This document shows positions 13,218 to 34,716 of a DNA stretch of 55,765 nucleotides, piece by piece. Under the pieces are notes generated by a model, which saw only the letters and a program-made list of their open reading frames with translations, was not told the DNA's origin and searched no databases. Numbering within the stretch: the first letter of the stretch is position 1; the number at the start of each line of letters is the position of its first letter. Origin of the DNA: Oscillospiraceae bacterium (GTDB taxonomy: Bacteria; Bacillota; Clostridia; Oscillospirales; UBA929); contig WRMG01000005.1 in the NCBI GenBank assembly GCA_009777255.1, positions 1 through 55,765 on the forward strand, given 5' to 3'. The position numbers and the translations under genes are program-made.

Positions 13218-13246
13218 TTGACTTTTTTAATATAATGTTATATAAT
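13218..13246 (+). promoter_or_regulatory. SigA-type promoter of the glutamate synthase operon
   Basis: TTGACT (13218-13223), 17-bp spacer, TATAAT (13241-13246). Confidence 0.8.
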
Positions 13247-13254
13247 ATTTTTGT

Positions 13255-14416: not shown

Positions 14417-15912
14417 ATTTTATATATCCCGATTATGAGGTAACGCGAAACTCCGACAGATGTATCGCCTGCCGCGCCTGTGAGCGCCAATGCGCCAACG
14501 GGGCGCATGAATATCTCCCCGACGCGAACAGGGTGGTCTGCGACGACGCAAAATGCGTGAACTGCCACCGCTGCGTTTCTCTCTGCCCCACCCGCGCGCT
14601 GAAAATCGTAAAAAGCGGCAATACATACAGAGAGAATATGAACTGGAGCGGCAAGACTATAAACGAACTGTACCGGCAGGCGGGCAGCGGCGGCGTACTG
14701 CTGTCAAGCATGGGCAACCCCGAGGAATATCCTGTATATTTTGACAAGCTGCTGTTAAACGCCTCGCAGGTCACAAACCCGTCGATAGACCCGCTGCGCG
14801 AGCCTATGGAAACAAAGGTGTTCCTTGGCGCGAAGCCCCGGCAAATTGAGCGCGGCAAGGACGGGCGGATAATAAACAATCTGCCGCCGCAGCTTAATCT
14901 GTCTATGCCGGTGATGTTCTCGGCCATGAGCTACGGCTCACTGAGCTACAACGCGCACGAAAGCCTTGCGCGCGCCGCGGAGGAGCTGGGCATCCTTTAC
15001 AATACCGGCGAAGGCGGGCTGCACGAGGACTTTTATAAATACGGTAAAAACACCGTCGTACAGGTCGCGTCGGGACGTTTCGGCGTCCATCCCGAATACC
15101 TGAACAGCGGCGCGGGCGTCGAAATTAAAATGGGGCAGGGCGGCAAGCCCGGAATCGGCGGCCATCTGCCGGGGACGAAAATCATCGGCGACGTTTCGCG
15201 CACCCGAATGATTCCCGAGGGCAGCGACGCTATCTCGCCCGCACCCCACCACGACATTTACTCAATCGAGGATCTGCGGCAGCTTGTTTTTTCGCTCAAA
15301 GAGGCGACGCGCTACACAAAGCCGGTCATCGTTAAGATCGCCGCCGTCCATAACGTATCGGCCATAGCCAGCGGCATTGCCAGAAGCGGAGCCGATATAA
15401 TCGCCATCGACGGCTTCCGCGGCGGCACGGGCGCCGCTCCCACGCGTATGCGCGACCATGTGGGTATCCCTATCGAGCTTGCTCTGGCCGGAGTTGACAA
15501 GAGGCTGAGGGACGAGGGCATCCGCGATAACGTATCCATAATAGCCGGCGGCAGCATCCGTTCCAGCGCCGACATAGTAAAGGCCGTCGCTTTGGGCGCG
15601 GACTGCGTGTATATCGGCACGGCGGCGCTGCTGGCGCTCGGCTGCCACTTATGCAGAAGCTGTCACGGCGGCAGGTGCAACTGGGGTATCGCCACACAGG
15701 CGCCGGAGCTTGTAAAGCGGCTTAACCCCGAGATCGGCTATAAGCGTCTTGTCAATCTGCTGACAGCCTGGCGGCATGAGATAAAGGAGATGATGGGCGG
15801 CATGGGGATAAACTCAATCGAGAGCCTGAAAGGCAACCGGCTTATGCTCCGCGGCGTGGGGCTGAACGAAAAGGAGCTTGAAATACTGGGCGTAAAACAC
15901 GCGGGGGAATAA
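14407..15912 (+). CDS. Glutamate synthase FMN-binding (synthase) subunit with N-terminal 4Fe-4S ferredoxin domain
   Basis: CIACRACERQCA and CVNCHRCVSLCP; MSYGSLSYNAHESLARAAEELG, GEGG, KMGQGGKPGIGGHLPG, GADIIAIDGFRGGTGAAP. Confidence 0.92.
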   Translation: MPVNFIYPDYEVTRNSDRCIACRACERQCANGAHEYLPDANRVVCDDAKCVNCHRCVSLCPTRALKIVKSGNTYRENMNWSGKTINELYRQAGSGGVLLSSMGNPEEYPVYFDKLLLNASQVTNPSIDPLREPMETKVFLGAKPRQIERGKDGRIINNLPPQLNLSMPVMFSAMSYGSLSYNAHESLARAAEELGILYNTGEGGLHEDFYKYGKNTVVQVASGRFGVHPEYLNSGAGVEIKMGQGGKPGIGGHLPGTKIIGDVSRTRMIPEGSDAISPAPHHDIYSIEDLRQLVFSLKEATRYTKPVIVKIAAVHNVSAIASGIARSGADIIAIDGFRGGTGAAPTRMRDHVGIPIELALAGVDKRLRDEGIRDNVSIIAGGSIRSSADIVKAVALGADCVYIGTAALLALGCHLCRSCHGGRCNWGIATQAPELVKRLNPEIGYKRLVNLLTAWRHEIKEMMGGMGINSIESLKGNRLMLRGVGLNEKELEILGVKHAGE

Positions 15913-15915
15913 ACT

Positions 15916-17343
15916 ATGAGTAATATATATGAAAATCCTTTATGCAAGAGATACGTGAGCGCCGAAATGCAGTATGTCTTCTCGGACGACAACAAGTTCT
16001 CCACATGGCGCAGGCTGTGGATAGCGTTAGCCGAGAGCCAGAGAGAGCTGGGGCTTGACATAAGCGCCGGGCAGATAAACCAGATGAAGGCGCATGTAAG
16101 CGACATCAACTATGACGCGGCGGCAAAGCATGAGTCCGAGACGCGGCACGACGTCATGGCGCATATTCTGGCCTACGGCGAGCAGTGCCCCAAGGCAAAG
16201 CCCGTAATACATCTCGGCGCGACGTCATGCTATGTGGGCGACAACACGGATATTATAATACAGAGGTCCGCGCTGCTGCTTGTTAAAAAACTGCTGGTAA
16301 ACGCTTTGGCGGCGCTGTACGGTTTCGCGGAGAGGTACAAAGACCTGCCCTGTCTGGCATATACCCATTTTCAGGCGGCGCAGCCCACCACCGTCGGGAA
16401 GCGCGCGACGCTGTGGATGCAGGACATCATGTTTGACCTTGAACAGCTGGAGTTTGTGTTGAAAAACCTAAAGCTGCTCGGCTGCAAGGGTACGACGGGC
16501 ACCGGCGCCAGCTTCCTCTCGCTCTTTGACGGCGACCATGAAAAGGTAAAAACGCTGGAGCTGAAGATAGCCGGAAAGATGGGCTTTGAGAAGATATACG
16601 CCGTTTCCGGCCAGACCTATTCCAGAAAAGTCGATTACTATACGTTATCGGTGCTGTCGGGGATCGCGCAGAGCGCCTATAAATTCTCCAACGACATACG
16701 GCTGATGTCGCACATGAAAGAGGTTGACGAACCGTTTGAAACAGGCCAGATCGGGTCGAGCGCAATGGCGTATAAACGCAATCCCATGCGGAGCGAACGC
16801 ATAGCCTCGCTTGCCCGCTATGTGACGGTGGACGCGCTGAATCCCGCGCTGACGGCAAGCGCGCAGTGGCTGGAGAGGACGCTGGACGACTCGGCGAACA
16901 GGCGTATATCTATCCCCGAGGCTTTTCTCGCCGCCGACGCCATCCTGTCGCTGGTCATAAACATCGCCGGCGGGCTTACGGTCTATCCGAGTATTATCAA
17001 AAAACATCTGGATGAAGAGCTGCCCTTTATGGCGACGGAAAATATCCTGATGCGCTGCGTGAAAAAAGGCGGCGACAGACAGGCTCTGCACGAGCGTATA
17101 AGACAACATTCCGTCGAGGCGGCGAAAAGGATCAAGCTGGAGGGCAAAGAGAATGACTTGATTGCCCGTATCGCGGCGGACGCCGCGTTTGGCCTGACCG
17201 GCGGAGAGCTTCAGGAGCTGCTGCGCGCCGAATGTTTCACGGGCAGGGCAAAGGAGCAGACCGCGGAGTTTTTGACTGAGGCCAAGGCGGTGCTTGACGC
17301 GAACAGGGAGCTTTTGGGCGTTGACGTAAAAATTACGGTATAG
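15916..17343 (+). CDS. purB: Adenylosuccinate lyase
   Basis: GATSCYVGDNTD, TRPxx-like THFQAAQPTTVGKRATLW, signature SSAMAYKRNPMRSE. Confidence 0.95.
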   Translation: MSNIYENPLCKRYVSAEMQYVFSDDNKFSTWRRLWIALAESQRELGLDISAGQINQMKAHVSDINYDAAAKHESETRHDVMAHILAYGEQCPKAKPVIHLGATSCYVGDNTDIIIQRSALLLVKKLLVNALAALYGFAERYKDLPCLAYTHFQAAQPTTVGKRATLWMQDIMFDLEQLEFVLKNLKLLGCKGTTGTGASFLSLFDGDHEKVKTLELKIAGKMGFEKIYAVSGQTYSRKVDYYTLSVLSGIAQSAYKFSNDIRLMSHMKEVDEPFETGQIGSSAMAYKRNPMRSERIASLARYVTVDALNPALTASAQWLERTLDDSANRRISIPEAFLAADAILSLVINIAGGLTVYPSIIKKHLDEELPFMATENILMRCVKKGGDRQALHERIRQHSVEAAKRIKLEGKENDLIARIAADAAFGLTGGELQELLRAECFTGRAKEQTAEFLTEAKAVLDANRELLGVDVKITV

Positions 17344-17356
17344 GGAGGTTCGCATT

Positions 17357-18619
17357 ATGCTTACGGCTATAGTCGGTATCAACTGGGGCGATGAGGGCAA
17401 AGGCCGCATGGTCGATTTGCTGTCGGAGGGCTATGATATAATCTGCCGTTATCAGGGCGGCAACAACGCGGGACATACGGTTGTAAACGAGAAAGGCAAA
17501 TTTATCTTAAATCTTTTGCCGTCCGGTATCCTGCGCGACGGCGCCGTCAACGTCATGGGCGGCGGCATGGTCATTGACCTTGAACATCTCTGCGGTGAGA
17601 TCAGGACGCTGCATGAGAAGGGCGTTAAGGTCACGCCGGAAAATCTGAAGATAAGCGACAAAGCCTTTATCTGTATGCCCTATCATAAAACGCAGGATAT
17701 ATTGGAGGAGGAACGGCTCCTTGATAAAAAATACGGCTCGACAAGACGCGGCATAGCGCCCGTATACGGCGATAAATATATGAAAAAAGGGCTGCGCATG
17801 GGCGACCTGCTCGACGCCGGAACCTTAGAGCAAAAGCTGGCAGACATCGTGGAGTGGAAGAATATCACTCTCAGAGGCTACGGCGGCGAGACGGATTTAC
17901 CGGCGCTGCTTAGCTGGCTGCGTGAGTACGGGGAGCAGCTTTGCCCCTATGTCACCGACACGTCGGAATATCTTGCCGCTTCCGCCGGAAAGAAGATTTT
18001 ATTCGAGGCGCAGCTCGGCGCGCTCAGGGATATAGACTACGGCATCTACCCGTATACCACGTCCTCGCAGACGCTGGCGGCATACGCGCCCATCGGCGCG
18101 GGTATCCCGGGGCTCAAACTCGACCGCGTGATCGGGGTGATGAAAGCCTATTCCAGCTGTGTGGGAGAGGGTCCATTCGCCGTGGAGATGTCCGGCGGCG
18201 AAGCCTCCGCGCTGAGAGAGGCCGGCGCGGAATACGGCGCGGCGACAGGCAGACCGCGCAGGGTCGGCGGGTTTGACATACCGGCAAGCCGCTACGGCAT
18301 ACGGGTACAGGGCGCTGATGAGATCGCGCTGACCAAACTGGACGTGCTTTCGTATATGGAAAAAATCCCCGTCTGCGTCGCGTATGAGCTTGACGGCGTG
18401 AGGATCGACGGGTTCCCCACCGGCGACAGGCTCGCCAAAGCCAAACCGGTCTTTGAGTATTTGGACGGTTTCCGTACTGATGTATCCAAGTGCCGGAAAC
18501 CCGAGGAGCTGCCCGGCGCGGCGCTCAGGTATATCCGTTTTATCGAGGACGCCGTGAAATGCCCGATAAAATATGTGTCGGTCGGCGCCGGACGCGGCGA
18601 TTATCTTGTTATGGGGTGA
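17357..18619 (+). CDS. purA: Adenylosuccinate synthetase
   Basis: VGINWGDEGKGRMVDLL, QGGNNAGHTVV, GRPRRVGGFD. Confidence 0.96.
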   Translation: MLTAIVGINWGDEGKGRMVDLLSEGYDIICRYQGGNNAGHTVVNEKGKFILNLLPSGILRDGAVNVMGGGMVIDLEHLCGEIRTLHEKGVKVTPENLKISDKAFICMPYHKTQDILEEERLLDKKYGSTRRGIAPVYGDKYMKKGLRMGDLLDAGTLEQKLADIVEWKNITLRGYGGETDLPALLSWLREYGEQLCPYVTDTSEYLAASAGKKILFEAQLGALRDIDYGIYPYTTSSQTLAAYAPIGAGIPGLKLDRVIGVMKAYSSCVGEGPFAVEMSGGEASALREAGAEYGAATGRPRRVGGFDIPASRYGIRVQGADEIALTKLDVLSYMEKIPVCVAYELDGVRIDGFPTGDRLAKAKPVFEYLDGFRTDVSKCRKPEELPGAALRYIRFIEDAVKCPIKYVSVGAGRGDYLVMG

Positions 18620-18624
18620 TATGT

Positions 18625-19056
18625 GTGAAGCGTGTTTATGTAAATGAGAAATGGTGTTTGGGCTGCCATCTGTGCGAGTATTACTGCGCGTTCGCGGGGA
18701 CGAACGAAAAGGATATGGCGCGCGCGCTCAAGGATATTAAAATCAATCCCAAGATAAAAATAGAGGAGCTGGACGGCGTCAGCTTCGCCGTATCCTGCCG
18801 TCACTGCCGCGAGCCGCTGTGCGTGAAAGGCTGTATCACCGGCGCCTTGACTATAAACGACGGCGTTATCACGATCAATAAGGACCGGTGCGTTAGCTGT
18901 TATACCTGCATTTTAAGCTGTCCGTTCGGGGCGGTATCCCCCTCGGACGGCGGCGCAGTCGAGAAATGCGAGCTGTGCGTTCAGACGACGGGGGGAACGC
19001 CGGCGTGCGTCAAGGGCTGTCCCAACGGCGCGATAGTGTTTGAGGAAAGGGGTTGA
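18625..19056 (+). CDS. 4Fe-4S dicluster ferredoxin (glutamate synthase-associated electron carrier)
   Basis: Cys clusters CLGCHLCEYYCAF, CRHCREPLCVKGC, CVSCYTCILSCPFGA, CELC; GTG start at 18625. Confidence 0.88.
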   Translation: MKRVYVNEKWCLGCHLCEYYCAFAGTNEKDMARALKDIKINPKIKIEELDGVSFAVSCRHCREPLCVKGCITGALTINDGVITINKDRCVSCYTCILSCPFGAVSPSDGGAVEKCELCVQTTGGTPACVKGCPNGAIVFEERG

Positions 19057-20294
19057 ACGGCTTGGCCGGTAACAAATACGTTATCATCGGCAACTCGGCG
19101 GCGGGTATAGGCGCGGCAGAGGGCATACGGCAGGTTGACAAGCGCGGCGAAATCACCATTATCACCGACGAGCCGCACCATACATACTCCCGTCCGCTTA
19201 TCTCCTATCTTCTGCTTGGCAAGGCAGACGAGGAGAAGATGAAATACCGCCCCGCCCGTTTTTACGCGGACAACGGATGTACGCTGATAAACGCCAGAGC
19301 GTCGCAAATCGACGCCGAAGCAAAACAGCTGGTTTTATCGGACGGACGCCGCGTGCCATATGATAAACTGCTGGTCGCGGCCGGCTCCCGCGCGTTTGTT
19401 CCGCCGTTCAAGGGTCTTGATACGGTTAAAGAAAAGTTTACCTTTATGAGCTTAGACGACGCCCGGGGACTTGACGCGGCGCTAGCGCCGGATAAGCGCG
19501 TGCTGATCGTCGGCGCGGGGTTAATAGGGCTTAAATGCGCCGAGGGGATTTTGGACAGGGTATCGCATATCACTGTAATTGATTTGGCGCCCGGGATCCT
19601 GTCCAGTATCCTTGACGAGGGCGGCGCGAAGCCGGTTCAGAGGCATCTTGAGAACAAGGGCATAGAGTTCAGGCTCTCATGCGGCGTCGAAAGTTTTGAC
19701 GGCGATACCGCGCTGCTTGACAGCGGCGAAACCGTCGGGTTTGACATCCTTGTGCTGGCGGTGGGCGTGCGCCCGAACACATCGCTGCTGGAGGGGATAG
19801 CTGATATTGACCGCGGTATAATCGTAAACGGGAGGTCCGAAACAACCGCCCACGGCATATACGCCGCCGGCGACTGCACGCAAACCCTTGATATTTCAAG
19901 CGGTCAACCAAAAATCATGGCGCTGCTGCCCAACGCCTATATGCAGGGCGAGTGCGCCGGTATCAACATGGCCGGCGGAGAAAAGGAGTTTGGCAAGGCG
20001 ATCCCCATGAACGCCGTCGGCTTCTGCGGGCTGCACGTCATAACCGCGGGCAGCTATACGGGCGATGCTTACGCCGAGGACGGCGACGGCAGCTACAAGC
20101 GCCTGTTCTACAGCGATAACGCGCTTAACGGCTTTATATTAATAGGCAATATCGAAAAGGCGGGAATCTATACAAGCCTTATCAGGGAACGCACTCCGCT
20201 TGACACTATAGATTTCGCGCTGGTCTGTAAAAAACCCGGGCTTATGGCATTCACCAAGGAAGATAGACAGTCTAAACTGGGGGAGGCGAAATAA
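19053..20294 (+). CDS. FAD/NAD(P)-dependent oxidoreductase, probable glutamate synthase small-subunit partner
   Basis: YVIIGNSAAGIGAAEGIR, VLIVGAGLIGLKCAEG, GIYAAGDCTQ; TTG start overlapping the ferredoxin stop. Confidence 0.88.
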   Translation: MNGLAGNKYVIIGNSAAGIGAAEGIRQVDKRGEITIITDEPHHTYSRPLISYLLLGKADEEKMKYRPARFYADNGCTLINARASQIDAEAKQLVLSDGRRVPYDKLLVAAGSRAFVPPFKGLDTVKEKFTFMSLDDARGLDAALAPDKRVLIVGAGLIGLKCAEGILDRVSHITVIDLAPGILSSILDEGGAKPVQRHLENKGIEFRLSCGVESFDGDTALLDSGETVGFDILVLAVGVRPNTSLLEGIADIDRGIIVNGRSETTAHGIYAAGDCTQTLDISSGQPKIMALLPNAYMQGECAGINMAGGEKEFGKAIPMNAVGFCGLHVITAGSYTGDAYAEDGDGSYKRLFYSDNALNGFILIGNIEKAGIYTSLIRERTPLDTIDFALVCKKPGLMAFTKEDRQSKLGEAK

Positions 20295-20295
20295 A

Positions 20296-21012
20296 ATGGA
20301 TATATCGGCGCTTAAACTGGATTTCAAAGCGCTCAACGAACAGATCAACGCCGAGGACGGCGACGTCCGTATCAGCGATTGCTGCGGGCATAGGTTCATC
20401 GGCTGCGGCGCCAAGGGAAAGACAATCACAATAAACGGCACGCCGGGCAACGCTCTGGGCGCTTATATGGACGGCGCGGTCATCGAGGTTAACGGCAACG
20501 CTCAGGACGCCGTCGGCGACACGATGAACGACGGGGAAATTATAATCCGCGGCAGCGCGGGCGACGCGCTCGGTTACGCCATGCGCGGCGGAAGCATCTA
20601 TGTAAAAAACGACGCCGGTTACAGAACCGGCATACATATGAAGGAGTACAGGGATAAAAAGCCCGTGATCGTGATAGGCGGCAAAGCTGGCAGCTTTTTG
20701 GGAGAGTATCTGGCCGGCGGAATTATTATCGTACTCGGCATCGGCGCGGAGGACGTACCTGTCGGAAACTTTACGGGAACCGGTATGCACGGCGGGCGTA
20801 TCTTTGTCAGAACGGAAAACGAGCTTGAGAATCTGCCCGCGCAGGTGACGATAACGGTTGCCGATGAGGATGAAAAAATGGGGATCAAGGGGTATATCTC
20901 CCGCTTCGCCGGACTTTTCGGGGCTGACATCGATGCGCTCATGCGGGATAAATTCTATGTTCTCAAACCAAACGCGAAAAATCCATACAAGCAGCTGTAC
21001 ACCGTAAATTAA
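20296..21012 (+). CDS. Glutamate synthase GXGXG-domain subunit (GltB domain 3/GlxC-like)
   Basis: Repeated beta-helix motifs NALGAYMDGAVIEVNGNAQDAVGDTMNDGEIIIRGSAGDALGYAMRGGSIYV. Confidence 0.9.
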   Translation: MDISALKLDFKALNEQINAEDGDVRISDCCGHRFIGCGAKGKTITINGTPGNALGAYMDGAVIEVNGNAQDAVGDTMNDGEIIIRGSAGDALGYAMRGGSIYVKNDAGYRTGIHMKEYRDKKPVIVIGGKAGSFLGEYLAGGIIIVLGIGAEDVPVGNFTGTGMHGGRIFVRTENELENLPAQVTITVADEDEKMGIKGYISRFAGLFGADIDALMRDKFYVLKPNAKNPYKQLYTVN

Positions 21013-21028
21013 TGGAAGGAGCGCGGCT

Positions 21029-22843
21029 ATGTGCGGGATTATCGGTTACGTCGGGGAGGAAAACGCCGTCCCGATTATTGTAGAGGGGCTTAAAAAGCTG
21101 GAGTATCGGGGATACGACTCAGCGGGGGTCGCGGTCTGCGGCCAGAACGGCTTTTTCGACGTGATAAAACAAAAGGGCCGTCTGACGGCGCTGGAGGCGC
21201 GTCTTAGCGAAAACCCGATCGCCGGTAATATGGGGATAGGGCACACCAGGTGGGCCACGCACGGCGAGCCGTCCGATACAAATTCCCACCCGCATGTGGG
21301 AAGCCAAAATAAAATCGCCGTCGTCCACAACGGCATCATAGAGAATTACAGACAGTTAAAAGAGCGCTTGGAACAAAAAGGTATAGCGTTTGCCTCGCAG
21401 ACCGACAGCGAGGTCATAGCGCAGCTCGCGGAGTATTATTACTCCGGCGACCTGCTCGATACGGTCATTAAGGTGGCCAACGCTCTTGAAGGCTCCTACG
21501 CGCTGGGCATAATGTGCCTTGACGAGCCGGATATGCTTGTCGCCGTCAAGAAAGACAACCCGCTCATCATCGGCGTGTCCGGTCACGGGCAGTTCATCGC
21601 GTCCGACGTCCCCGCCGTGCTAAAGCACACCAACAAGGTCTGTTATCTTAACGATAAGGAAATCGCGGTGCTGACAAAAGGCGGCGCGCGATTTTTCAAC
21701 ATGGACAGGGAGCCGCTTAGCAAGACGCCGGAAACCGTCACATGGGATATAGACAGCGCCGAAAAGGGCGGCTTTGAGCATTTTATGCTCAAAGAGATTA
21801 TGGAACAGCCCAAAGTGCTGCGGGACACTATCCAATCGGTTCATAGCGGCGGCAATAAAGAGGTAATCGAAAGCCTTGAGGCCGCCCGTTTCGATAAGCT
21901 CGTCATCACGGCCTGCGGGTCGGCGTATAACGCCGGAGTTGTGGCAAAATATGTTTTTGAGCGGCTTTGCAGGCTCTCCGTCGAGGTGGAGCTTGCCAGC
22001 GAGTTCCGCTATAAGGACGCGATCATCAGTGATAAAACGCTTGTCATTCTGGTCAGCCAGTCGGGAGAAACCGCCGATACCATCGCCGCCATGCGGGAGG
22101 CGAAGGCAAAGGGCGCCTTTACTCTGGGCATTGTCAACGTGGTGGGCAGCACCATCGCCAAGGAAGCGGAAGTCTGCCTGTTCACGGCGGCGGGACCGGA
22201 AATCGCCGTGGCGACGACAAAAGTATTCTCGGCCCAGCTTGTGCTGCTGTATATACTGGCGGTCCGGTTCGCCGCCGCGCTGGGCAAGATGACGGAAGAG
22301 GCGGAACGCGGGCTGTCGGCGGAGATCGCCGCTCTGCCCGGCAAGGCGGAGGAGATACTCTCCCGTATTGATTCGATCCAAAAATACGCCTCGACCTGCA
22401 TCGGCTATAAAAGCATTTTCTTCATCGGCAGAAATATCGACTACGCCATCGCGCTGGAGGGGTCGCTTAAACTCAAGGAAATATCCTATATCCACTCCGA
22501 GGCGTATGCCGGTGGCGAGCTGAAGCACGGCCCCATATCGCTGGTCGAGGAGGAGGACACGCTGGTCGTCGCGCTCTCAAACTGCGGGCGTCTGCGCGGC
22601 AAAATAATGAGCAACGTGGAGCAGGTGGTGAGCAGGGGCGCGAAAGTTTTGCTGATTGGTTCTTGCCAAGACGCCGGTCAAAGTGGTATAATCTCATATA
22701 TCGGCCTGCCGGAAGTGCCGGAGCTGTTTTCCCCGTCGCTGTCGGTGATTGTCATGCAGCTGTTCAGCTACTATGTGGCCGCCAACAAGGGGCTTGATAT
22801 AGATAAACCCCGGAACTTAGCCAAAAGCGTTACCGTAGAATAG
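21029..22843 (+). CDS. glmS: Glutamine--fructose-6-phosphate aminotransferase (isomerizing)
   Basis: MCGIIGYVG, LEYRGYDSAGVAV, GIGHTRWATHG, VSQSGETADT; C-terminal DKPRNLAKSVTVE. Confidence 0.97.
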   Translation: MCGIIGYVGEENAVPIIVEGLKKLEYRGYDSAGVAVCGQNGFFDVIKQKGRLTALEARLSENPIAGNMGIGHTRWATHGEPSDTNSHPHVGSQNKIAVVHNGIIENYRQLKERLEQKGIAFASQTDSEVIAQLAEYYYSGDLLDTVIKVANALEGSYALGIMCLDEPDMLVAVKKDNPLIIGVSGHGQFIASDVPAVLKHTNKVCYLNDKEIAVLTKGGARFFNMDREPLSKTPETVTWDIDSAEKGGFEHFMLKEIMEQPKVLRDTIQSVHSGGNKEVIESLEAARFDKLVITACGSAYNAGVVAKYVFERLCRLSVEVELASEFRYKDAIISDKTLVILVSQSGETADTIAAMREAKAKGAFTLGIVNVVGSTIAKEAEVCLFTAAGPEIAVATTKVFSAQLVLLYILAVRFAAALGKMTEEAERGLSAEIAALPGKAEEILSRIDSIQKYASTCIGYKSIFFIGRNIDYAIALEGSLKLKEISYIHSEAYAGGELKHGPISLVEEEDTLVVALSNCGRLRGKIMSNVEQVVSRGAKVLLIGSCQDAGQSGIISYIGLPEVPELFSPSLSVIVMQLFSYYVAANKGLDIDKPRNLAKSVTVE

Positions 22844-22854
22844 GAGGGAGCGGC

Positions 22855-24171
22855 ATGAACGCCACCGCGGGCGAGGTATTGGAATTTGTAAAGGAGAACG
22901 ACGTTAAGTTTATCCGGCTCGGGTTTTGCGACCTGTTCGGGCTTCAAAAGAATATTTCCATCCCGTCGGACGATTTGGAATCCGCGTTTGAGGACGGGGT
23001 GTACTTTGACGCCCACTCTATCCGCGGCTTCCGTGACGTGACCGAGTCCGATCTGCTGCTGTTCCCCGATCCCGCGACGCTTACGGTTCTGCCGTGGCGC
23101 CCGGGACCGGGCAGGGTCGCGCGTTTTTACTGCGACATCAAAACGCCGGACAGGCGCGCGTTTATACTTGACAGCAGGTATATACTAAGGCTTGTAGTCA
23201 AGCGGTGCGCCGATATGGGCTTTGTTTGCAGAATCGGCGCTGACTGCGAGTTTTATCTGTTCAGGGCCGGCGAGGACGGCGAGCCGACGCGCGCAACCCT
23301 TGACAGGGGCGGTTATCTGGATATTTCGCCGTTGGACAGGGGCGAGGATATACGCAGGGAGATATGCCTGACTCTGGATGAAATGGGGCTGAAGCCCGAG
23401 CTTTCGCGCCATGAGAAGGGCCCCGGGCAGAACGAGATCGACTTTAAGTTCTCCGACGCGCTCTCCTGCGCCGACAACCTCCTGACCTTCAAGTCGGTCG
23501 TCAAGGCGATCGCCGCGCGCAACGGGCTGTTCGCGTCGTTTATGCCCAAGCCCATACCAAACGCGCCCGGCAGCGGGCTGCACTTAAACATCTCGCTTGC
23601 GAAAAACGGGCGCAATGTTTTTAAGAGCGACGGCGAACATTCGGCGGCGGCGGAGAGCTTTATCGCGGGGATACTTCAAAGAACGCCTGAAATATCACTG
23701 TTTCTCAATCCCATCGCCAATTCATACGAGCGCTTCGGCGCTTATGAGGCGCCGAAATATGTGTCATGGTCGCATCAGAACCGCTCGCAGCTTATACGGA
23801 TCCCCGCGGCGACCGGCGAAAAGGTCAGGATGGAGCTGCGTTCGCCCGACCCGTCTGTTAACCCCTATCTCGCGTTCGCGCTGATACTCGCGGCTGGGCT
23901 TGAGGGGATCGAAAAGGGCCGGCCCCTGCCGCCCGCCGTTGACGCGGACCTATACACCGCGGACGAAAGCGTGACCAAAACACTTGCGCCGCTGCCGGAC
24001 AGCCTCGATACGTCGATCAGGCTTGCGGAAAACAGCGAGTTTGTCAAAGGAGTTACCGGCAAAGAGCTGCTTGGCAAATACCTTGCGATCAAAAAAGCCG
24101 AAGCCGCTGATTACGACGCCTCCGCAGACAAGGCGGCGTTTTGTGAGGAACGCTATTTCAGCAGTATATAG
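22855..24171 (+). CDS. glnA: Glutamine synthetase type I
   Basis: RLGFCDLFGLQKNISIP, DADSTR-like region, FMPKPIPNAPGSGLHLNISL, MELRSPDPSVNPYLAFALILAAGLEGI. Confidence 0.94.
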   Translation: MNATAGEVLEFVKENDVKFIRLGFCDLFGLQKNISIPSDDLESAFEDGVYFDAHSIRGFRDVTESDLLLFPDPATLTVLPWRPGPGRVARFYCDIKTPDRRAFILDSRYILRLVVKRCADMGFVCRIGADCEFYLFRAGEDGEPTRATLDRGGYLDISPLDRGEDIRREICLTLDEMGLKPELSRHEKGPGQNEIDFKFSDALSCADNLLTFKSVVKAIAARNGLFASFMPKPIPNAPGSGLHLNISLAKNGRNVFKSDGEHSAAAESFIAGILQRTPEISLFLNPIANSYERFGAYEAPKYVSWSHQNRSQLIRIPAATGEKVRMELRSPDPSVNPYLAFALILAAGLEGIEKGRPLPPAVDADLYTADESVTKTLAPLPDSLDTSIRLAENSEFVKGVTGKELLGKYLAIKKAEAADYDASADKAAFCEERYFSSI

Positions 24172-24204: not shown

Positions 24205-24774
24205 ATGGACAGCGTTCTAATCGTTTCCTGTTCCGGTAAAGGGACGGACTTCTTCTCCGAGCTGCTGAACTCGGCCGGCTTTCATCATATCGCCGTAACG
24301 CAATCCTGCGGCGAGGCGCGAAGGCTTTTACTCACCCGCGATTACGACCTGGTTGTCGTTAACGCCCCGCTGCGGGACGAATCGGGAGAAAATCTCTCGC
24401 GGCAGATAGCGTCCAGAGGAATTTCGCAAGCTATGCTGGTGGTAAAGAGCGAGCATTTCGAGGCGGTTTCCGCGGTTTGCGAGGACGACGGCGTTCTGAC
24501 GGTCGCCAAACCGGTAAACAGGGCGGTTTTCTGGTCCGCTTTGAAGCTGGCCGGGGCGTCGCAAAACAGACTGAGGCGCGTACAGGCCGAAAACGCGAAG
24601 CTGAAGCAGAAAATCGAGGATATACGGGTCGTTGACCGGGCTAAATGCCTTTTAATATCGCACATGAGCATGAGCGAAAACGACGCGCACAGGTTTATCG
24701 AGAAACAGGCGATGGACATGCGCTTGGGTAAAAAGGAAATAGCGGAAAGGATATTGAAAACATATGAAGCGTGA
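24205..24774 (+). CDS. ANTAR-domain RNA-binding antiterminator with degenerate receiver domain
   Basis: C-terminal helices AENAKLKQKIEDIRVVDRAKCLLISHMSMSENDAHRFIEKQAMDMRLGKKEIAERIL = ANTAR; receiver phospho-Asp position appears as Asn (DLVVVNAPLRDESG). Confidence 0.88.
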   Translation: MDSVLIVSCSGKGTDFFSELLNSAGFHHIAVTQSCGEARRLLLTRDYDLVVVNAPLRDESGENLSRQIASRGISQAMLVVKSEHFEAVSAVCEDDGVLTVAKPVNRAVFWSALKLAGASQNRLRRVQAENAKLKQKIEDIRVVDRAKCLLISHMSMSENDAHRFIEKQAMDMRLGKKEIAERILKTYEA

Positions 24775-24822: not shown

Positions 24823-25890
24823 ATGACGGCGTATCTGCTTTTAGAGGACGGCACTGTCTTTGAGGGGAGTTCTTTCGGCGCGCAGGGCAGCGTTACGGGA
24901 GAAATTGTATTCTCCACCGGCATGACCGGCTATTTGGAAACGCTGACCGATCCCAGCTATTACGGGCAAATCATTCTTCAAACCTTTCCGCTTATCGGCA
25001 ACTACGGCGTTATCCCCTCCGATTTCGAGAGCGGCGCCGTCGCGGCAAAAGCCTATATCGTAAAGCATCCGTGCCAAAACCCCTCCAACTTCCGAAGCGA
25101 GGGGGCTCTTGAGTCTTTCCTGAAGGAACGCGGCGTCGTCGGGCTTTACGGGATAGATACGCGCGCGCTTACTAAGCTAATACGCGAAAACGGCGTTATG
25201 AACGGGAAGATAACGCTCTCCCCGCCGACCGAAGCCGACCGCGCCGAAGTGCGGGCCCACCGTATCGGCGGCGCCGTCGCCGCGGTATCGTCAAAGCTCC
25301 CGTCCCCGCCGCTCAAGGGTTCGGACGCGGCGGCGCGCCGCCGCGTGGCGCTGATGGATTTCGGCGCGAAACGCGGCATCGCCGAGGCTCTGACTGCGCG
25401 CGGCTGCGAGGTGTGGGTGTTCCCGCACGACACCCCGGCTGGAGAGATCACGAAGATAAATCCCAGCGGCATTGTGCTTTCAAACGGGCCCGGCGACCCC
25501 GCAGACCCCGCGAATAACGGGATAGTCGAAACTCTCCGCGAGCTGAACCGGACCGGTATACCGATTTTCGGCATCTGCCTGGGGCATCAGCTTTTGGCGC
25601 TGGCAAACGGATATAAAACCAAAAAGCTCAAATTCGGACACAGGGGCGCCAACCAGCCTGTCAGGGACACGCGGACGGGACGCGTATATATCACCAGCCA
25701 AAACCACGGCTACACGGTCATCGCGGATAACGGCTCGTTCGTCAACGTTAACGACGGCACCTGCGAGGGTATGGATTACGGCGTGTCGTTTTCCGTGCAG
25801 TTTCATCCCGAGGCCCGGGGCGGGCCGCTCGACACGGCGTTTTTGTTTGAAATCTTTATGGAGAGGATGAACGCGTATGCCGCTGAATAA
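24823..25890 (+). CDS. carA: Carbamoyl-phosphate synthase small subunit
   Basis: LEDGTVFEGSSFGA, TGMTGYLETLTDPSYYGQI, GIDTRALT, GICLGHQLLALA, QFHPEARGGP. Confidence 0.96.
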   Translation: MTAYLLLEDGTVFEGSSFGAQGSVTGEIVFSTGMTGYLETLTDPSYYGQIILQTFPLIGNYGVIPSDFESGAVAAKAYIVKHPCQNPSNFRSEGALESFLKERGVVGLYGIDTRALTKLIRENGVMNGKITLSPPTEADRAEVRAHRIGGAVAAVSSKLPSPPLKGSDAAARRRVALMDFGAKRGIAEALTARGCEVWVFPHDTPAGEITKINPSGIVLSNGPGDPADPANNGIVETLRELNRTGIPIFGICLGHQLLALANGYKTKKLKFGHRGANQPVRDTRTGRVYITSQNHGYTVIADNGSFVNVNDGTCEGMDYGVSFSVQFHPEARGGPLDTAFLFEIFMERMNAYAAE

Positions 25891-28800
25891 GAACATCAAA
25901 AAAACTTTGGTCATCGGCTCCGGCCCGATCGTTATAGGGCAGGCGGCGGAGTTTGATTACGCGGGTACGCAGGCGTGCCGCGTTCTCCGTGAGGATAATA
26001 TCGAGATCGTGCTTGTCAACTCCAACCCCGCCACAATAATGACTGACGAAAACATCGCGGATAAAATATATATCGAGCCTCTGACACTGACGACGATCAA
26101 ACGCATAATCGAAAAAGAGCGCCCCGACAGTATCCTGTCCGGACTGGGAGGCCAGACGGGGCTGACGCGCTGTATGCAGCTTGCCAAAGAGGGCTTTTTA
26201 GAGAAAATGGGCGTACAGCTGCTGGGTTCCTCGCCGGCGACCATTGACAGAGCTGAGGACCGGCAGCTCTTTAAGGAAACCATGCTCGCCGCCGGACAGC
26301 CCTGCGTCCCGTCGGCAATAGCCACCGACGTCGGGGCTGCGGTCGAATTCGCGGAGAGTATCGGTTATCCGGTAATAGTGCGTCCGGCGTTCACCTTGGG
26401 CGGCGCCGGAGGCGGTATCGCCGGCGACGAGGCAAAGCTGCGCGAGATCGCGGCCGGCGGCATAAAGCTGTCGCCTATCAATCAGATACTCATCGAAAAA
26501 TCTATCGCCGGCTGGAAAGAGATCGAGTTTGAGGTGATGCGCGACGGCGCGGACAACGTGATAACCGTCTGCTCCATGGAAAATTTCGATCCGGTAGGCG
26601 TGCATACCGGCGACAGCATTGTCATAGCGCCCGCCGTCACGCTGGCCGACAAGGAATATCAAATGCTCAGGAAAGCGTCCTTGGATATAATCCGGGCGCT
26701 CGGCGTCGAGGGCGGCTGCAACGTCCAGCTCGCGCTGCACCCGCACAGCTTTGAATACGCCGTTATAGAGGTCAACCCGCGCGTGTCGCGCTCCTCGGCA
26801 CTGGCCAGCAAGGCTACGGGTTATCCGATCGCTAAAGTGGCTACTAAAATCGCCATCGGCTACACCCTGGACGAGATCACCAACGCCGTTACGGGAACCA
26901 CCTTCGCCGCCTTTGAACCGGCGCTTGACTATGTGGCGGTCAAATTCCCCAAGTGGCCGTTCGACAAATTCGTCTACGCCAACAGGGATCTGGGCACTCA
27001 AATGAAGGCGACCGGCGAGGTCATGGCGATAGCCGACACGTTTGAGGCGGCGCTGCTCAAAGCGGTGCGCGGCGCGGAGCTGGGGCTTGACAGCCTTGAC
27101 CTTCCCCGTCTGATGAGCAAAAGCGACGCCGAAATACGCGCGCTTCTTGATAACGTGACCGATGAGCGGCTGTTCGTGCTGTATGAGGCCGTCAAACGCG
27201 GCGTAAGCATTGACGAGCTTTATGATATAACAAAGGTTGACCGCTGGTTCCTGCACGGGCTTGCTAATATAGCAAAAGACAATCTGCCGTCCAAGCAGCT
27301 CGTATATAAGATGGTTGACACCTGCGGCGGCGAGTTCGAGGCGAAAACCCCCTACTTTTACTCCATACAAAACGGGACGGAGGACGAAGCCCTGCCGTTT
27401 ATCAAAAAAAGCGAAAAAAGCCGTATAGTCGTGCTGGGCAGCGGGCCGATCCGTATCGGCCAGGGTATTGAGTTCGACTACGCCTGCGTGCATTGCGTGT
27501 GGACGCTGAGGGAGCTTGGGTATGAGGTAATCGTCATAAATAACAACCCCGAAACGGTGTCAACGGATTTCGACACCGCCGACAGGCTGTACTTCGAGCC
27601 GCTGCATATCGGCGATGTGATGAGCGTTATAGAGAACGAAAAACCCATAGGCGTTATAGTGGCCTTCGGCGGCGGCACGGCGATCAAGCTGACGAAAACG
27701 CTGCGCGAGCGCGGCGTGAATATCATCGGCACCCCCGCGGACAGCATAGACATCTGCGAGGACAGGGGGCGTTTCGACGATTTGCTGGAACAGCTCCATA
27801 TCAAACGCCCCAAGGGTTACGGCGTGCTGACGGAAGCGGAGGCGCTCGGCGCCGCCGACAGGCTCGGCTATCCCGTGCTCATGCGCCCGTCTTACGTGCT
27901 GGGCGGACAGAATATGATTATCGCGTTCTCCGAAGCGGACATACGCGAGTATATGGAAATAATCCTGCGGCAGAAACAGGAAAACCCCGTGCTGATCGAC
28001 AAGTATCTGGAGGGCATGGAGATCGAGGTTGACGCTATCTGCGACGGCAGGGATGTCCTGATTCCCGGCGTAATGGAGCATATCGAGCGCACCGGCGTCC
28101 ACTCGGGCGACAGTATCGCCGTATATCCGGCTATAAATATCGACGACAATCTGACCGGAAAGATTTTTGACGTGACGCGAAAGCTCTGTATGGCGCTGAA
28201 TGTCAAAGGGCTGGTCAACATCCAGTACGTCCTGTATGAAAACGAACTGTATGTGATCGAGGTCAACCCCCGCGCGTCGCGTACCGTGCCGTATATCAGC
28301 AAGGTCACCGGCGTCTCCATGTGCGAGCTGGCCACAAGGATAAGCGTCGGCGAAACGCTGGAGGAGCTGGGATACACGTCAGGTGTAGCGCGCATACCGC
28401 CGTATACGGCGGTCAAGGTGCCGGTATTCTCTTTTGAAAAGCTGGTCGGTCTGGATACCCATTTAGGGCCCGAGATGAAATCCACGGGAGAGGTTCTGGG
28501 GCTCGGAAAAAACATCGAAGAGGCGCTTTACAAGGGGCTTGTCGCCGCGGGCTATACCATGCGCAAGAGCGGCGGGGTCCTCATTACTGTGCGCGACGGC
28601 GATAAAGCGGAAATCGCGGACGTCGCTAAAAAATTCGTCCGGCGCGGGTTTTCATTGTACGCGACCCGAGGCACCGCACGGTTTTTGGAGGGGAAGGGGT
28701 TCTCGGTCCAAACCGTGGAGAAAATCCATGACTGCGCCTTAAACAACACCGAAACGATGATGGAGAGCGGAAACATCAGCTATGTCGTCTGCACATCTGA

Positions 28801-29815
28801 GAAAGGAAGAGATCCCGCGCTGGACGATGTGCAGCTGCGCAGGAAAGCGTGCGCGCTGGGTATCCCGTGCCTCACGTCCATCGACACGGCAAACGCGCTG
28901 GCGGACAGCCTGCTCTCAGGCTACAGCGAAATCAACACGGAGCTTGTTGACATAAACGATCTGAGGGCTGAGCGCATGAAGCTGGAGTTTACCAAAATGC
29001 AGACCTGCGGCAACGACTATATCTACATCAACTGCTTTGACCTTGAGATAAACTCGCCGGAGTCGCTGTCGGTACTGCTGTCAGACCGGCATTACGGCGT
29101 CGGCGGCGACGGCGTCGTCCTGATCCTCCGTTCGGATATTGCCGACGCCAGGATGAGGATGTTCAATCTCGACGGCAGCGAGGGTAAAATGTGCGGCAAC
29201 GCCATCCGCTGCGTCGCCAAATACCTGTATGACAACCGTATGGTCACGAAAACGCGGATGAGCATAGACACGCTGAGCGGAATAAAAATAATGGATGTGA
29301 CCACAAAAAACGGGCTTGTCTTATCCGTCAAGGTCGATATGGGGCGCGCCGTGCTAAGGCCGGACGATATACCCGTCAGGCTCTCCGGCGAGAGCGTCGT
29401 GGCAAGGCCGGTAACCGTCGGCGGCGCGGAATATAAAATCACATGCGTTTCAATGGGCAATCCTCACGCGGTGGTATTCTGCGACAACGTTGAAAATTTC
29501 GCCGTCAACGATATAGGGCCGCTGTTTGAGTATGACGGGCTGTTCCCCGACAGGACAAACGCGGAATTTGTCGAGGTAATGGGCAGGAACCATTTGAAGA
29601 TGCGCGTCTGGGAGCGCGGCAGCGGAGAGACGCTCGCCTGCGGGACGGGCGCCTGCGCGGCGGCGGTCGCCGCCGTCCTGAACGGATACTGCGGCAAGGG
29701 CGCGGATATAAAGGTACAGGTGGCCGGCGGCGAGCTTATCGTAAACTATACCGACGAAGCGGTTATAATGATCGGCGACTGCAAAAAAGTATACGACGGG
29801 ATGGTGGAGATATGA
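25877..29815 (+). CDS. carB-dapF: Carbamoyl-phosphate synthase large subunit fused in frame to diaminopimelate epimerase
   Basis: 1312 aa. CarB part 25877-28975 ([24 protein letters not shown] ... [17 protein letters not shown]). DapF part from Met at 28976 ([59 protein letters not shown]). No stop between them. Confidence 0.92.
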   Translation: [1312 protein letters not shown]

Positions 29816-31335
29816 GCGGGCTTGTGCTGGTGCTGGACTTTGGCGGTCAATATAAGGAGCTGATCGCCCGGTCGGTAAGGAGCCTCTCGGTTTATTCGGA
29901 AATCAGAAACGGCAATATATCGGCCGACGAGGTAAAGCGCCTCTCCCCTATCGGCATAATACTGACGGGCGGCCCGAATAGCTTGCGCCTGCCCGATTCG
30001 CCGATGTGCGACCCCGCTATCTTTTCGCTGGGGATTCCTGTCCTCGGTATCTGCTACGGTATGCAGCTGATGTGCCATATGCTGGGCGGAACGGTGCAAA
30101 GCGGCGGGCGCGGCGAATATGGAACCGTCTGTGCCGCGCTGGATAACGGCTCCGCCTTGTTCGGCGGCATACCGGCGGAGAGCGCCGTCCTGATGAGCCA
30201 CAGCGACCGCGTGAGCAAGCTGCCGGACGGTTTTATAAACACCGGCAGTACGGCGGACTGCCCCGTCGCCGCATGTGAAAACACGCGGGACAGGCTTTAC
30301 GGCGTGCAGTTTCACCCCGAAACAGGGCATACCGCGCATGGGCGCGCGATACTTAAAAACTTTCTTTACGACGTGTGCGGCGCGGCGGGCGACTATAAAC
30401 TAAGCGGTTATATAAACACACAGATTGAGCGTATACGGCAGAAAGTCGGCGGTAATGAGGTTCTGCTCGCGCTGTCCGGCGGGGTCGATTCATCCGTGTG
30501 CGCGGCGCTCCTGTCCAAGGCCATCCCGGGACAGCTGACATGTATTTTTGTGGACCACGGCTTTATGCGCCAAAACGAGGGCGACGAGATCGAGAACGCT
30601 TTTTCGCGCGGCGGCCTCAGATTTATCCGCGTAAACGCGGGAGAGCGGTTCATTGGCAAGCTGAAAGGCGTGACCGAACCCGAGCAAAAGCGCAAGCTCA
30701 TCGGCGCCGAGTTTATCCGCGTCTTTGAGGAGGAAGCCGGAAAGCTGGGCGAAATACCGTTTTTGGCTCAGGGAACGATTTATCCCGACATAGTCGAGTC
30801 CGGCGGCGGTCACAACGCGACGATCAAAAGCCATCACAATGTGGGGGGGCTGCCCGAAGTCCTCAAATTCGCCGAGCTTATAGAGCCGTTGTCGGGGCTG
30901 TTTAAGGACGAGGTGCGCGCGCTCGGCAAAAAGCTGAAGCTGCCCGCGGCGATTGTAAACCGCCAGCCGTTTCCGGGGCCGGGGCTTGCCATACGCGTCA
31001 TAGGCGAGGTGACGGCGGACAAGCTGGAGGTTTTAAGGAAGGCCGACGCTATTTTCCGCGAGGAGCTTAGCGGCATGAGGCGCAAGCCGGACCAGTATTT
31101 CGCGGTGCTGACCGACACCCGCGCCGTCGGCGTCAAGGGCGACGGCAGGACATACGATCCCGTAATCGCGGTCAGAGCCGTGACGACGGACGACTTTATG
31201 ACATGTGAATACGCGCCGCTGCCGCATGACCTGTTAAAGCGCGTATCGTCACGGATAACAAGCGAGATAGCCGCCGTAAGCCGCGTGGTGTATGACATCA
31301 CCTCAAAGCCACCGGCCACGGTCGAGTGGGAGTGA
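29812..31335 (+). CDS. guaA: GMP synthase (glutamine-hydrolysing)
   Basis: [60 protein letters not shown]. Confidence 0.97.
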
Positions 31336-31342
31336 CTGTACC

Positions 31343-32965
31343 ATGACTAAGTACATTTTTGTTACCGGCGGCGTTGTATCCGGCCTCGGCAAGGGGATCA
31401 CCGCAGCGTCGCTGGGCCGGCTGCTCAAGCAGCGGGGCCTGAAGGTGGCGGCGCAGAAGCTGGACCCTTATATGAACGTCGATCCCGGAACCATGAGCCC
31501 CTTCCAGCACGGAGAGGTATTCGTCACGGACGACGGCGCCGAGACGGATCTTGACCTCGGGCATTACGAGCGTTTCATCGACGAAAACCTCACAAAGCTC
31601 TCAAACCTCACATCAGGCAAGGTATATTCCCGCGTGCTTGAGCGCGAGCGCGCCGGCGGTTACCTCGGCGGCACGGTGCAGGTCATACCGCACGTGACCG
31701 AGGAGATCAAGGGTTTCATTTACTCCGGCGCCGAAAGCAGCCGCGCCGACGTGCTGATAACGGAGATCGGCGGTACAACGGGCGACATCGAGAGCCAGCC
31801 GTTTTTAGAGGCAATACGGCAGATTTCACTGGAAAAAGGCCGCGAGAACTGCCTGTTTATCCATGTCACGCTTATCCCCTACCTGAAAGCCTCGGGCGAG
31901 CATAAGTCAAAGCCCACGCAGCACTCGGTCAAGGAGCTGCGCTCAATGGGCATTACGCCGAATATCATCATCGCGCGCGCCGACGAGCCGTTAAGCGGCG
32001 GCATCAAAGAAAAAATCTCGCTGTTCTGCGATGTGAAGCCCGATTGCGTGATAGAGAATATCACCCTCCCATCTCTCTATGAAGCGCCGCTTATGCTGCA
32101 CCAAAACGGGCTTGACGACGTGGTCTGCCGCGAGCTGAGGCTGGACGTGTCCGAAGCAGATTTAAGCGAGTGGCGGCTTTTGGCTAAAAAAATCGCGGCG
32201 AGGCAAAATACGGTCAGTATCGCCATTGTCGGTAAATACGTTCAGCTGCACGACGCGTATCTCTCGATTATCGAGAGCCTGCACCACGCGGGCTTCGACA
32301 GCGGCTCGAATATAAATATCCGCTGGATTGACAGCGAAAGCGTGACCGAGGAAAACGCCGGCAAGCTGTTAAGCGGAGCCGACGGCATGATCATCCCCGG
32401 GGGCTTCGGCGACCGCGGCATCGGCGGAAAGATCGCCGCCTGCCGTCACGCCAGAGAAAACGATCTCCCGTTTCTGGGCATATGCCTCGGTATGCAAATG
32501 GCCGTAATAGAGTTCGCGCGCCATGTGTGCGGGCTTGAGGGCGCCCACTCCGGAGAGTTTGACGAAGCCTCGCCGCATCGCGTAATAGATTTCATGCCCG
32601 GGCAGGAGGACATGATCGGCAGCGGCGGCACCATGCGCCTGGGCGCGTATCCCTGCAAAATAAAGCAGGACACGCTGATGCACAAGCTCTACGGCGCGGA
32701 CATGATAAGCGAGCGGCACCGGCACAGGCTTGAATTTAATAACGATTATCGGGAGCTTCTCGAAAAGGGCGGACTTGTCATATGCGGCTCGTCGCCGGAC
32801 GGCAGCCTTGCCGAAGCGATAGAACTGCCGGATCACAGTTTCTTCATCGGTGTGCAGTTCCATCCTGAATTCAAGAGCCGCCCCAACAAGCCGCACCCGC
32901 TGTTTACCGGACTGGTCGGCGCCGCTGTAAAACGAATAGGAGGGAAACGCCATGAACATAAATAA
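31343..32965 (+). CDS. pyrG: CTP synthase
   Basis: [75 protein letters not shown]. Confidence 0.97.
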
Positions 32966-33239
32966 CGAACTGATCACCTATCTGGAGGATTTGTCCTGCC
33001 TTACGCTCACGGAAGAGGAGAAACGGCGTCTAGCCGTGGACTTAAAGGATATTCTAAGCGGGATGGCCCGGCTCGGAGAGCTTGACACCCAAGGGGTCCC
33101 CGAACGCAGTCATCCGTTCGACCATGTCAACTGCTTCCGTGACGACGCGGCACAGGCGTCAATGGACCGCGAGCTTATCCTTAAAAACGCGCCGCACAGG
33201 AACAACGAAATGTTTATCGCGCCGAAAACAGTCGAATAG
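32952..33239 (+). CDS. gatC: Asp/Glu-tRNA amidotransferase subunit C
   Basis: Small protein with [25 protein letters not shown] directly upstream of gatA-gatB. Confidence 0.88.
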
Positions 33240-33255
33240 GCAAGGAGATAACTGT

Positions 33256-34716
33256 ATGTTTAACTTAAACGCTCTGGAATTATCAAGCCTTATACGCGAG
33301 AGGAAGCTGGGCGCGGCCGAGGCGGTAAACGCCTTTACCGGCGCTGCCGAAAAGTCAGGCAACCCGTATAACACCTTTATCACGGTATCAAAAGAGTACG
33401 CGCTTGAACGCGCCAAAGCGGTTCAGGCTCGAATCGACGCCGGTGAAACCATATCTCCGCTCGCAGGCGTCCCCGTCGCTCTGAAGGATAATATATCCAC
33501 GTCCGGTATACCGACGACCTGCGCGTCAAAAATGCACGACGGCTATATCCCCGTATTCAGCGCCGAGGTAGTTGACAAGCTGGAACGGGCGGGCATGATC
33601 ATAATCGGGAAACTTAACATGGACGAGTTCGCAATGGGCGGCTCCAGCGAAACGGGCGCTTTCGGCCCCGTACTGAATCCATGGGACACCTCCCGCGTAG
33701 CCGGAGGCTCGTCCGGCGGCAGCGCCGCCGCCGTGGCCGGACGCGAGGCGCCCCTTACGCTGGGCACGGATACCGGCGGCAGCATACGCCAGCCCTGCTC
33801 CTTCTGCGGCGTCACCGGCATAAAGCCGACATACGGCGCGGTGTCGCGGTACGGCGCCGTCGCCTATGCGTCGTCGCTCGACCAGATCGGCCCGATCGGA
33901 AAGAATATAGACGACTGCGCCGCGCTGCTGTCCGTCATCTCCGGCCCCGACGCCAAAGACAGCACATGCTTCATTGACAAGCCGTTTGTTTTTGGAGATG
34001 CCCGCGAAAACCTCAACGGCGTCAGAATCGGTCTGCCCCGCAACTATTTTGCCGCCGGCATCGAAGAAGACGTCAGGCATAACGTAACGGCGGCGGCGAA
34101 AGAGCTTGAGGCGGCGGGCGCGATTATCGGCGAATTCGACATGCCGCTGATGGACTATATGGTTCCCGTCTTTTATATAATCGCCTGCGCCGAAGCGTCG
34201 TCAAACCTCTCCCGTTACGACGGGCTGAAATACGGCTACCGCAGCGCGGCGGCGAAAACGCTCTCCGAGGTCTACAGGCTCTCGCGCAGCGAGGGCTTCG
34301 GGCTGGAGGTCAAGCGAAGGATAATGCTGGGCTCGTTTGTGCTTTCATCGGGCTATTACGACGCTTACTATAAAAAAGCGCTGCAAATCCGCGCGCTTAT
34401 CAAAGAGGAGTATAACCGGCTGTTCGAGCGCTTTGACATGATCCTCTCTCCGGTTTCGCCGACCTCCGCGTATAAAATCGGCGAGAACATAGACGACCCG
34501 ATGAAAATGTACATGGGCGACATCTATACCGTGTCGGTCAATCTGGCGGGGCTTCCGGCCGCGGTTTTCCCCTGCGGGTTTGACAGGCTTGGCCTCCCCG
34601 TCGGCGTCCAGCTTATCGGAAACGCCTTTTCGGAGGCGAAGCTTATCGAGGCGGCGCGGGTTTATCAGCGCCGAACCGATTACCACACAAAAACACCGGG
34701 AGGTGAAGCGAAATGA
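33256..34716 (+). CDS. gatA: Asp/Glu-tRNA amidotransferase subunit A
   Basis: GVPVALKDNISTSGIPTTCAS, GGSSGGSAAAVAGREAPLTLGTDTGGSIRQPCSFCGVTGIKPTYG; ATG at 33256 after aaggagat. Confidence 0.96.
   Translation: MFNLNALELSSLIRERKLGAAEAVNAFTGAAEKSGNPYNTFITVSKEYALERAKAVQARIDAGETISPLAGVPVALKDNISTSGIPTTCASKMHDGYIPVFSAEVVDKLERAGMIIIGKLNMDEFAMGGSSETGAFGPVLNPWDTSRVAGGSSGGSAAAVAGREAPLTLGTDTGGSIRQPCSFCGVTGIKPTYGAVSRYGAVAYASSLDQIGPIGKNIDDCAALLSVISGPDAKDSTCFIDKPFVFGDARENLNGVRIGLPRNYFAAGIEEDVRHNVTAAAKELEAAGAIIGEFDMPLMDYMVPVFYIIACAEASSNLSRYDGLKYGYRSAAAKTLSEVYRLSRSEGFGLEVKRRIMLGSFVLSSGYYDAYYKKALQIRALIKEEYNRLFERFDMILSPVSPTSAYKIGENIDDPMKMYMGDIYTVSVNLAGLPAAVFPCGFDRLGLPVGVQLIGNAFSEAKLIEAARVYQRRTDYHTKTPGGEAK

Follow-up and report, generated by a model that had tools for sequence, protein, structure and literature searches.

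The regulator encoded at 24205–24774 (+ strand) of the window, as we call the whole 55,765-nucleotide stretch of Oscillospiraceae DNA that was analysed, is probably a NitR-type antiterminator that acts through a single hexaloop hairpin at the 5′ end of the RNA ahead of nitrogen-assimilation genes. This reading is based on sequence, conservation, mutually exclusive RNA structures, the content of the regulon and the co-occurrence of protein and leaders, and from these we infer RNA binding, the transcription starts, the direction of the response and the signal. We also favour, with a lesser degree of confidence, the broader view that it represents a separate class of ANTAR antitermination, widespread in Clostridia and also found, along with its genes, in termite-gut MAGs placed in Treponema, Fibrobacteria, Chitinispirillia and Coriobacteriia. 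The readers of its single minimal 5′ hexaloop would be one clade of proteins, in which the receiver is non-phosphorylatable and the RNA contacts are changed (Arg142 to Ile, Tyr164 to His).

The open reading frame starts with the ATG at 24205 and yields a product of 189 residues, a receiver-ANTAR protein with a degenerate receiver (residues 1–105), a long helix and an ANTAR domain (131–184). The ANTAR C-terminus, already judged clear in the preliminary description, was detected by Pfam (PF03861) across residues 131–184 with an E-value of 3.8e-14 and 52.6 bits against a curated cut-off of 27.3. The Response_reg model matched residues 16–111 (E = 9e-7) with 29.5 bits, slightly below its curated cut-off of 30.2. 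Taken from the sequence, the protein fits a NitR-type ANTAR regulator, for which RNA binding is predicted. The source genome, assembled to 1.17 Mb and 64% complete, has chiefly termite-gut Oscillospiraceae MAGs as its near relatives, and no other ANTAR protein was detected in it. The 65 orthologues examined display 49–77% identity to the regulator. Clostridium orthologues are around 55% identical, and one related locus (L107) contains two ANTAR genes of this family.

The regulator gene is flanked by glnA on its 5′ side and carA on its 3′ side, within a long transcription unit on the + strand (unit 1). The genes ahead of glnA (13316–22843) are, in order, the amidotransferase and FMN pieces of glutamate synthase, purB, purA, a ferredoxin-type subunit, a pyridine-nucleotide oxidoreductase subunit, the GXGXG piece of glutamate synthase and glmS. 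They are followed by glnA itself (22855–24171, type I glutamine synthetase), immediately 5′ of the regulator, and, past the regulator (24823–37891), by carA, a carB-dapF fusion, guaA, pyrG, gatC, gatA, gatB and aspS. Unit 2 (38140–41985, +) comprises an ammonium transporter-PII fusion (amt-PII) and glnN, a type III glutamine synthetase, and is closed by a terminator at 42009–42034 (+). Most of the genes in both units produce or consume glutamine, glutamate or aspartate nitrogen. The block at 13316–37891 (+) joins glutamine synthesis with most of the glutamine-dependent amidotransferases (gltB, glmS, carA, guaA, pyrG and gatCAB) and also carries purA, purB and aspS; its gltB-to-pyrG part is found again in two close relatives (L050 and L071). 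The fusion of carB with dapF (diaminopimelate epimerase) forms a single frame of 1312 residues at 25877–29815, the PII domain is fused to the ammonium transporter at 38140–39849, and at 661–6461 lie the carbohydrate-active genes for a GH31 protein, a GH10 protein with a CBM4/9 domain and a glucuronyl esterase-like protein.

Leaders with an AAAGGC loop, reported earlier for this DNA, are present ahead of both transcription units (all on the + strand), each overlapping a terminator. Leader 1 precedes gltB and consists of a hairpin at 13255–13270 (TGGAC-AAAGGC-GTTCA) and an intrinsic terminator at 13260–13290, with 13260–13270 in common; leader 2 precedes amt-PII, with the hairpin at 37992–38007 (ACGGC-AAAGGC-GCTGT), the terminator at 37997–38032 and 37997–38007 in common. 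The preliminary description placed the two at both ends of one block; both leaders exist, but the second opens a separate unit, amt-PII-glnN. Promoters predicted from the consensus, each with 11 of 12 matches, lie directly ahead, at 13218–13246 (TTGACT, 17 nt, TATAAT) for unit 1 and at 37952–37980 (TTGACA, 17 nt, TATCAT) for unit 2. The end of the −10 box is separated from the stem by 8 nt in leader 1 and by 11 nt in leader 2, so that there is no space for a second hairpin (P1). At full length the leaders fold to the terminator (−16.5 versus −3.7 kcal/mol for the hairpin in leader 1, −24.5 versus −10.3 kcal/mol in leader 2), the short nascent RNA of each folds to the hairpin, and the two structures are mutually exclusive. 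With an A at position 1 and a G at position 4 of the hexaloop, and a terminator overlapping the antiterminator hairpin, both leaders show two of the published hallmarks of ANTAR targets; the third, two stem-loops separated by a short linker, is lacking, as each has one hairpin. Across the 64%-complete source genome, these two were the only convincing matches to the leader model (E = 1e-3 and 1e-4, the next being 4.2); two weak matches elsewhere in the source genome (E of 4–5) had no promoter and terminator logic and were rejected. Rfam matched nothing in the window, and the leaders of three loci were unmatched even at permissive settings.

The leaders are not peculiar to this genome. Around 100 related loci were scanned for hairpins with any A..G.. 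hexaloop overlapping a terminator, and the loops recovered were AAAGGC (38), AAAGGT (8) and AATGGC (6), with no other loop exceeding three; the excess of AAAGGC and AAAGGT was absent when the same scan was applied to reversed or complemented control sequence. Furthermore, in a test that did not require a stem for site selection, 36% of the terminator-overlapping AAAGG[C/T] sites had a stem of 4 bp or longer, as against 0–10% for loop variants differing by one base. The closing pair was C-G in all 40 aligned leaders, and the stem showed compensatory change, with 67 cells altered on both sides compared with 26.5 in shuffles. The constancy of loop positions A1, A2, G4 and G5 and of the inner four pairs is not independent evidence, because these were selected for. 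Pairing of the regulator with several leaders, which had been thought unusual, is the usual state across its family.

Promoters likewise accompany the related leaders: 47 of 53 sites matched the promoter consensus at 8 or more of its 12 positions, as against 50 of 265 random positions. These data bear on the possibility that the leaders are conventional two-hairpin targets whose P1 departs from the canonical form, is of low stability, or comes from RNA begun further upstream. An A..G.. hairpin does occur within 60 nt upstream at 7 of the 53 sites, leader 1 has one at 13230–13243, and transcription of unit 1, where no clear terminator was detected, may run on into leader 2. However, the frequency of such upstream hairpins (13%) compares with 6% at random positions, the leader 1 example lies inside the promoter, and in 42 of the 47 promoter-bearing sites the −10 box ends at a fixed short distance (5–13 nt) ahead of the hairpin. 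Scanning the window for paired hairpins produced chance-like pairs only, and the candidate at 13230–13270 takes promoter DNA as P1. Moreover, P1 is visible where it is present, as a similar scan, which accepted second stems as short as 3 bp, recovered two-hairpin leaders in a locus of another genome of the same class (L256 in G083). Judged by their translations, the reading frames there look like a eut operon (eutS, eutP, eutV, eutW and eutA); its EutV has the acidic pair DD and the acceptor Asp intact and the Tyr present, a kinase gene adjoins, and two leaders carry two hexaloop hairpins each. A eut-style motif, tried as a control, matched a single site across 291 genomes and proved too strict for this use; the eut-like operon in L256 took its place. 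On this evidence we consider two-hairpin leaders unlikely, and retain the single 5′ hexaloop as the preferred reading.

The genes preceded by such leaders point to a nitrogen regulon. Around 50 similar leaders, in Clostridia and in other phyla represented among termite-gut MAGs, precede gltB, glnN, amt, gdhA, asnA, asnB, purA, purB, argG, argD and glnA; in the related loci the downstream genes include glnN (17), gltB (15) and amt-PII (5). A covariance model was built from 43 leaders, partly from ANTAR loci, after exclusion of L032_16774 and L079_12972 as spurious. Its genome-wide matches, many of them on contigs apart from the ANTAR gene, add argG, argD, asnB, carB, purA, gdhA and glnA, and family models confirmed the identity of gdhA, asnA, asnB, argG and argD as leader-preceded genes. 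The same hairpin is found before glnA in C. celatum, C. saudiense, C. cuniculi and other Clostridium genomes, where the terminator has a long loop, beyond the range of the terminator scan. Tandem single-hexaloop attenuators, approximately 70 nt apart, were observed before glnN in two loci (− strand; L044 at 8884 and 8816, L045 at 10485 and 10413).

Leaders and regulator tend to occur in the same genomes. Among the relatives, a leader was found in 18 of 23 genomes with an orthologue and in 2 of 15 that lack one (Fisher p = 1e-4, kinship ignored); in a sample of 118 genomes of the class, the corresponding figures were 25 of 38 for strong orthologues (E at most 1e-40), 5 of 24 for weaker ones and 4 of 56 without (p = 1e-9 for strong orthologues versus none, kinship ignored). 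Thirteen genomes with a strong orthologue seemed leaderless, and closer inspection recovered leaders in some of them (for example G076, G087 and G099). Two of the leader-bearing exceptions without an orthologue (G045 and G101) encode another ANTAR protein; no ANTAR protein of any kind was detected in the leader-bearing G041 and G069 of the class sample or G021 and G032 among the relatives. These last four genomes speak for a rival view, in which the leaders are attenuators for another reader, either a small molecule or a different RNA-binding protein, with the ANTAR protein as a mere neighbour; moreover, the leaders have no Rfam model, so that no known reader is excluded. Against this stand the A1 and G4 of the loop, the terminator overlap, the strong co-occurrence with the orthologue and the position of leaders ahead of the regulator's own operon; we regard another reader as quite improbable, even more so than a hidden P1, and continue with the ANTAR protein as the reader.

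The ANTAR gene was also observed in termite-gut MAG loci (L064, L085, L090, L091, L103, L088, L084 and L108, several with leaders) assigned to Treponema, Fibrobacteria, Chitinispirillia, Chitinivibrionia and Coriobacteriia. This cross-phylum occurrence suggests that the module has been transferred, or else that contigs were wrongly binned; some of the contigs exceed 100 kb. In a further locus (L117) a CRISPR-DR2 repeat array at 18438–19588 (+) lies alongside the nitrogen cluster.

The receiver was examined by alignment with EutV-like paralogues. The peptides LIVSCSGKG, DLVVVNAPL and VAKPVN, on which the preliminary description had based its account of a non-phosphorylatable receiver, were all found in the regulator. 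Asn53 falls in the column of the acceptor Asp of the paralogues (LMDIKMP), as had been claimed, and Ser8 and Cys9 occupy the columns of their acidic pair, in agreement with its proposed loss; the regulator thereby lacks both the acidic pair and the acceptor Asp that mark phosphorylatable response regulators. The late KP motif, likewise said to be kept, is present as Lys102-Pro103, with the Lys conserved in 62 and the Pro in all 65 orthologues. Residue 53 is Asn in 54 orthologues, Asp in 7, Ser in 2 and Tyr in 2; residue 8 is Ser in 59, Thr in 4 and Ala in 2, and residue 9 is never acidic. As the acidic pair is lost in all 65, even the seven orthologues with Asp53 are without the Mg-binding acids. 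With an acceptor that is mostly Asn and a pair that is never acidic, phosphorylation of the receiver is therefore unlikely across the whole family, judging by these sequences, and not only in the window as originally suggested. By the same token the degenerate receiver has no special status in the source genome. The motif NAPLxDExG, surrounding the old receiver pocket, is strongly conserved among the orthologues, and the family points to a receiver that has swapped phosphorylation for another signal.

An AlphaFold2 model of the regulator (mean pLDDT 93.3, pTM 0.75) shows a receiver fold joined by a helix of 49 residues to an ANTAR bundle. The nearest full-length structural fit was RNA-bound EutV (6ww6_B; TM 0.75, rmsd 3.7). 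Of the solved structures, Rv1626 matched best by sequence (E = 2.5e-13) but with another domain arrangement (rmsd of 15 to the model), and AmiR ranked next after these two in the structural comparison. With the numbering and RNA contacts of EutV (PMC8934654), Lys149, Glu160 and Met172 are retained in the regulator. Arg142 and Tyr164 are replaced by Ile and His, respectively, in all 65 orthologues, which counts against the preferred reading; the His at the Tyr164 position is shared with AmiR.

We propose that, in the default state, each unit's leader RNA would form its intrinsic terminator and transcription would halt at approximately 40–50 nt. Under nitrogen shortage, the regulator would bind and hold the single hexaloop hairpin as it forms at the 5′ end of the growing RNA; because the terminator's 5′ arm includes the 3′ arm of this hairpin, the held hairpin would block termination and the polymerase could continue into gltB...glnA-nitR-carAB...aspS and amt-PII-glnN. 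The direction of this response, on under nitrogen shortage, is borrowed from the published NitR system (PMC6316151). The circuit would be self-reinforcing, since the regulator gene lies inside unit 1.

The receiver would not be switched by phosphate, and the signal would most likely arrive through contact with a partner, glutamine synthetase foremost. Precedents exist in Bacillus, where glutamine synthetase acts on the regulator TnrA (PMC6316151), and in AmiR-AmiC, where a partner controls an ANTAR pseudo-receiver (PMC3369931). Across the related loci glnA lies immediately upstream of the regulator gene in 68 of 75, whereas an amt-PII gene is nearby in 9 of 75, and this near-constant adjacency makes GlnA a better candidate than PII. 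Adjacency by itself proves neither alternative. The chance that the signal instead comes from the PII domain of Amt-PII, or from a small ligand occupying the former receiver pocket, is only a little short of even, given that amt-PII is among the targets in the window and that the motif around the pocket is so well conserved. We put contact with GlnA, as against PII or a small ligand, at roughly even odds.

A NitR-type ANTAR protein is a known kind of regulator; less expected are the single-hexaloop leaders without P1, which we read as a variant of ANTAR antitermination with predicted RNA binding. The published ANTAR target RNA consists of two stem-loops and a linker (PMC3369931, PMC8164766), and published models treat both hairpins as necessary for antitermination. 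From the structure of EutV bound to RNA, one hexaloop was proposed to be the minimal binding motif (PMC8934654), a proposal with which the leaders agree, and for EutV both hairpins are required in vivo (PMC3369931, PMC8934654). No description of single-hexaloop terminator leaders was found in the open-access library searched, which did not yield the main NitR paper (Stutz 2007). As the leaders are a natural, many-times-conserved case of a single hairpin, the one-hairpin question becomes directly testable. If the proposal is true, P1 is shown to be dispensable in nature and searches demanding two hairpins would overlook such leaders; the motif would offer a simple way of mapping, across a large group of anaerobes, nitrogen regulons that those searches would miss.

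In comparison with known systems, Rv1626 from Mycobacterium tuberculosis (1s8n, 1sd5), alike in sequence, differs from the Asn-bearing regulator in having Asp at the acceptor position and otherwise arranged domains. AmiR from Pseudomonas aeruginosa (1qo0) likewise combines ANTAR with a pseudo-receiver, controlled by AmiC, and shares the His at the EutV Tyr164 position, but has another partner and a target stated to be a two-hairpin RNA (PMC3369931). EutV from Enterococcus faecalis (6wsh, 6ww6) resembles the regulator in its receiver-ANTAR layout, its overall structure and the A1/G4 hexaloop over a terminator; unlike the regulator, it has an intact receiver, a kinase (EutW), Arg142 and Tyr164, and two-hairpin targets. 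The likeness to NitR-type regulators beside glutamine synthetase, drawn in the preliminary description, holds for the window as for the related loci. As with NitR of Clostridium saccharobutylicum NCP262, where GS/GOGAT genes are induced by antitermination under nitrogen limitation (Stutz et al. 2007, summarised in PMC6316151), an ANTAR regulator adjoins glutamine synthetase and has predicted GS/GOGAT targets, but the target block in the window is far larger.
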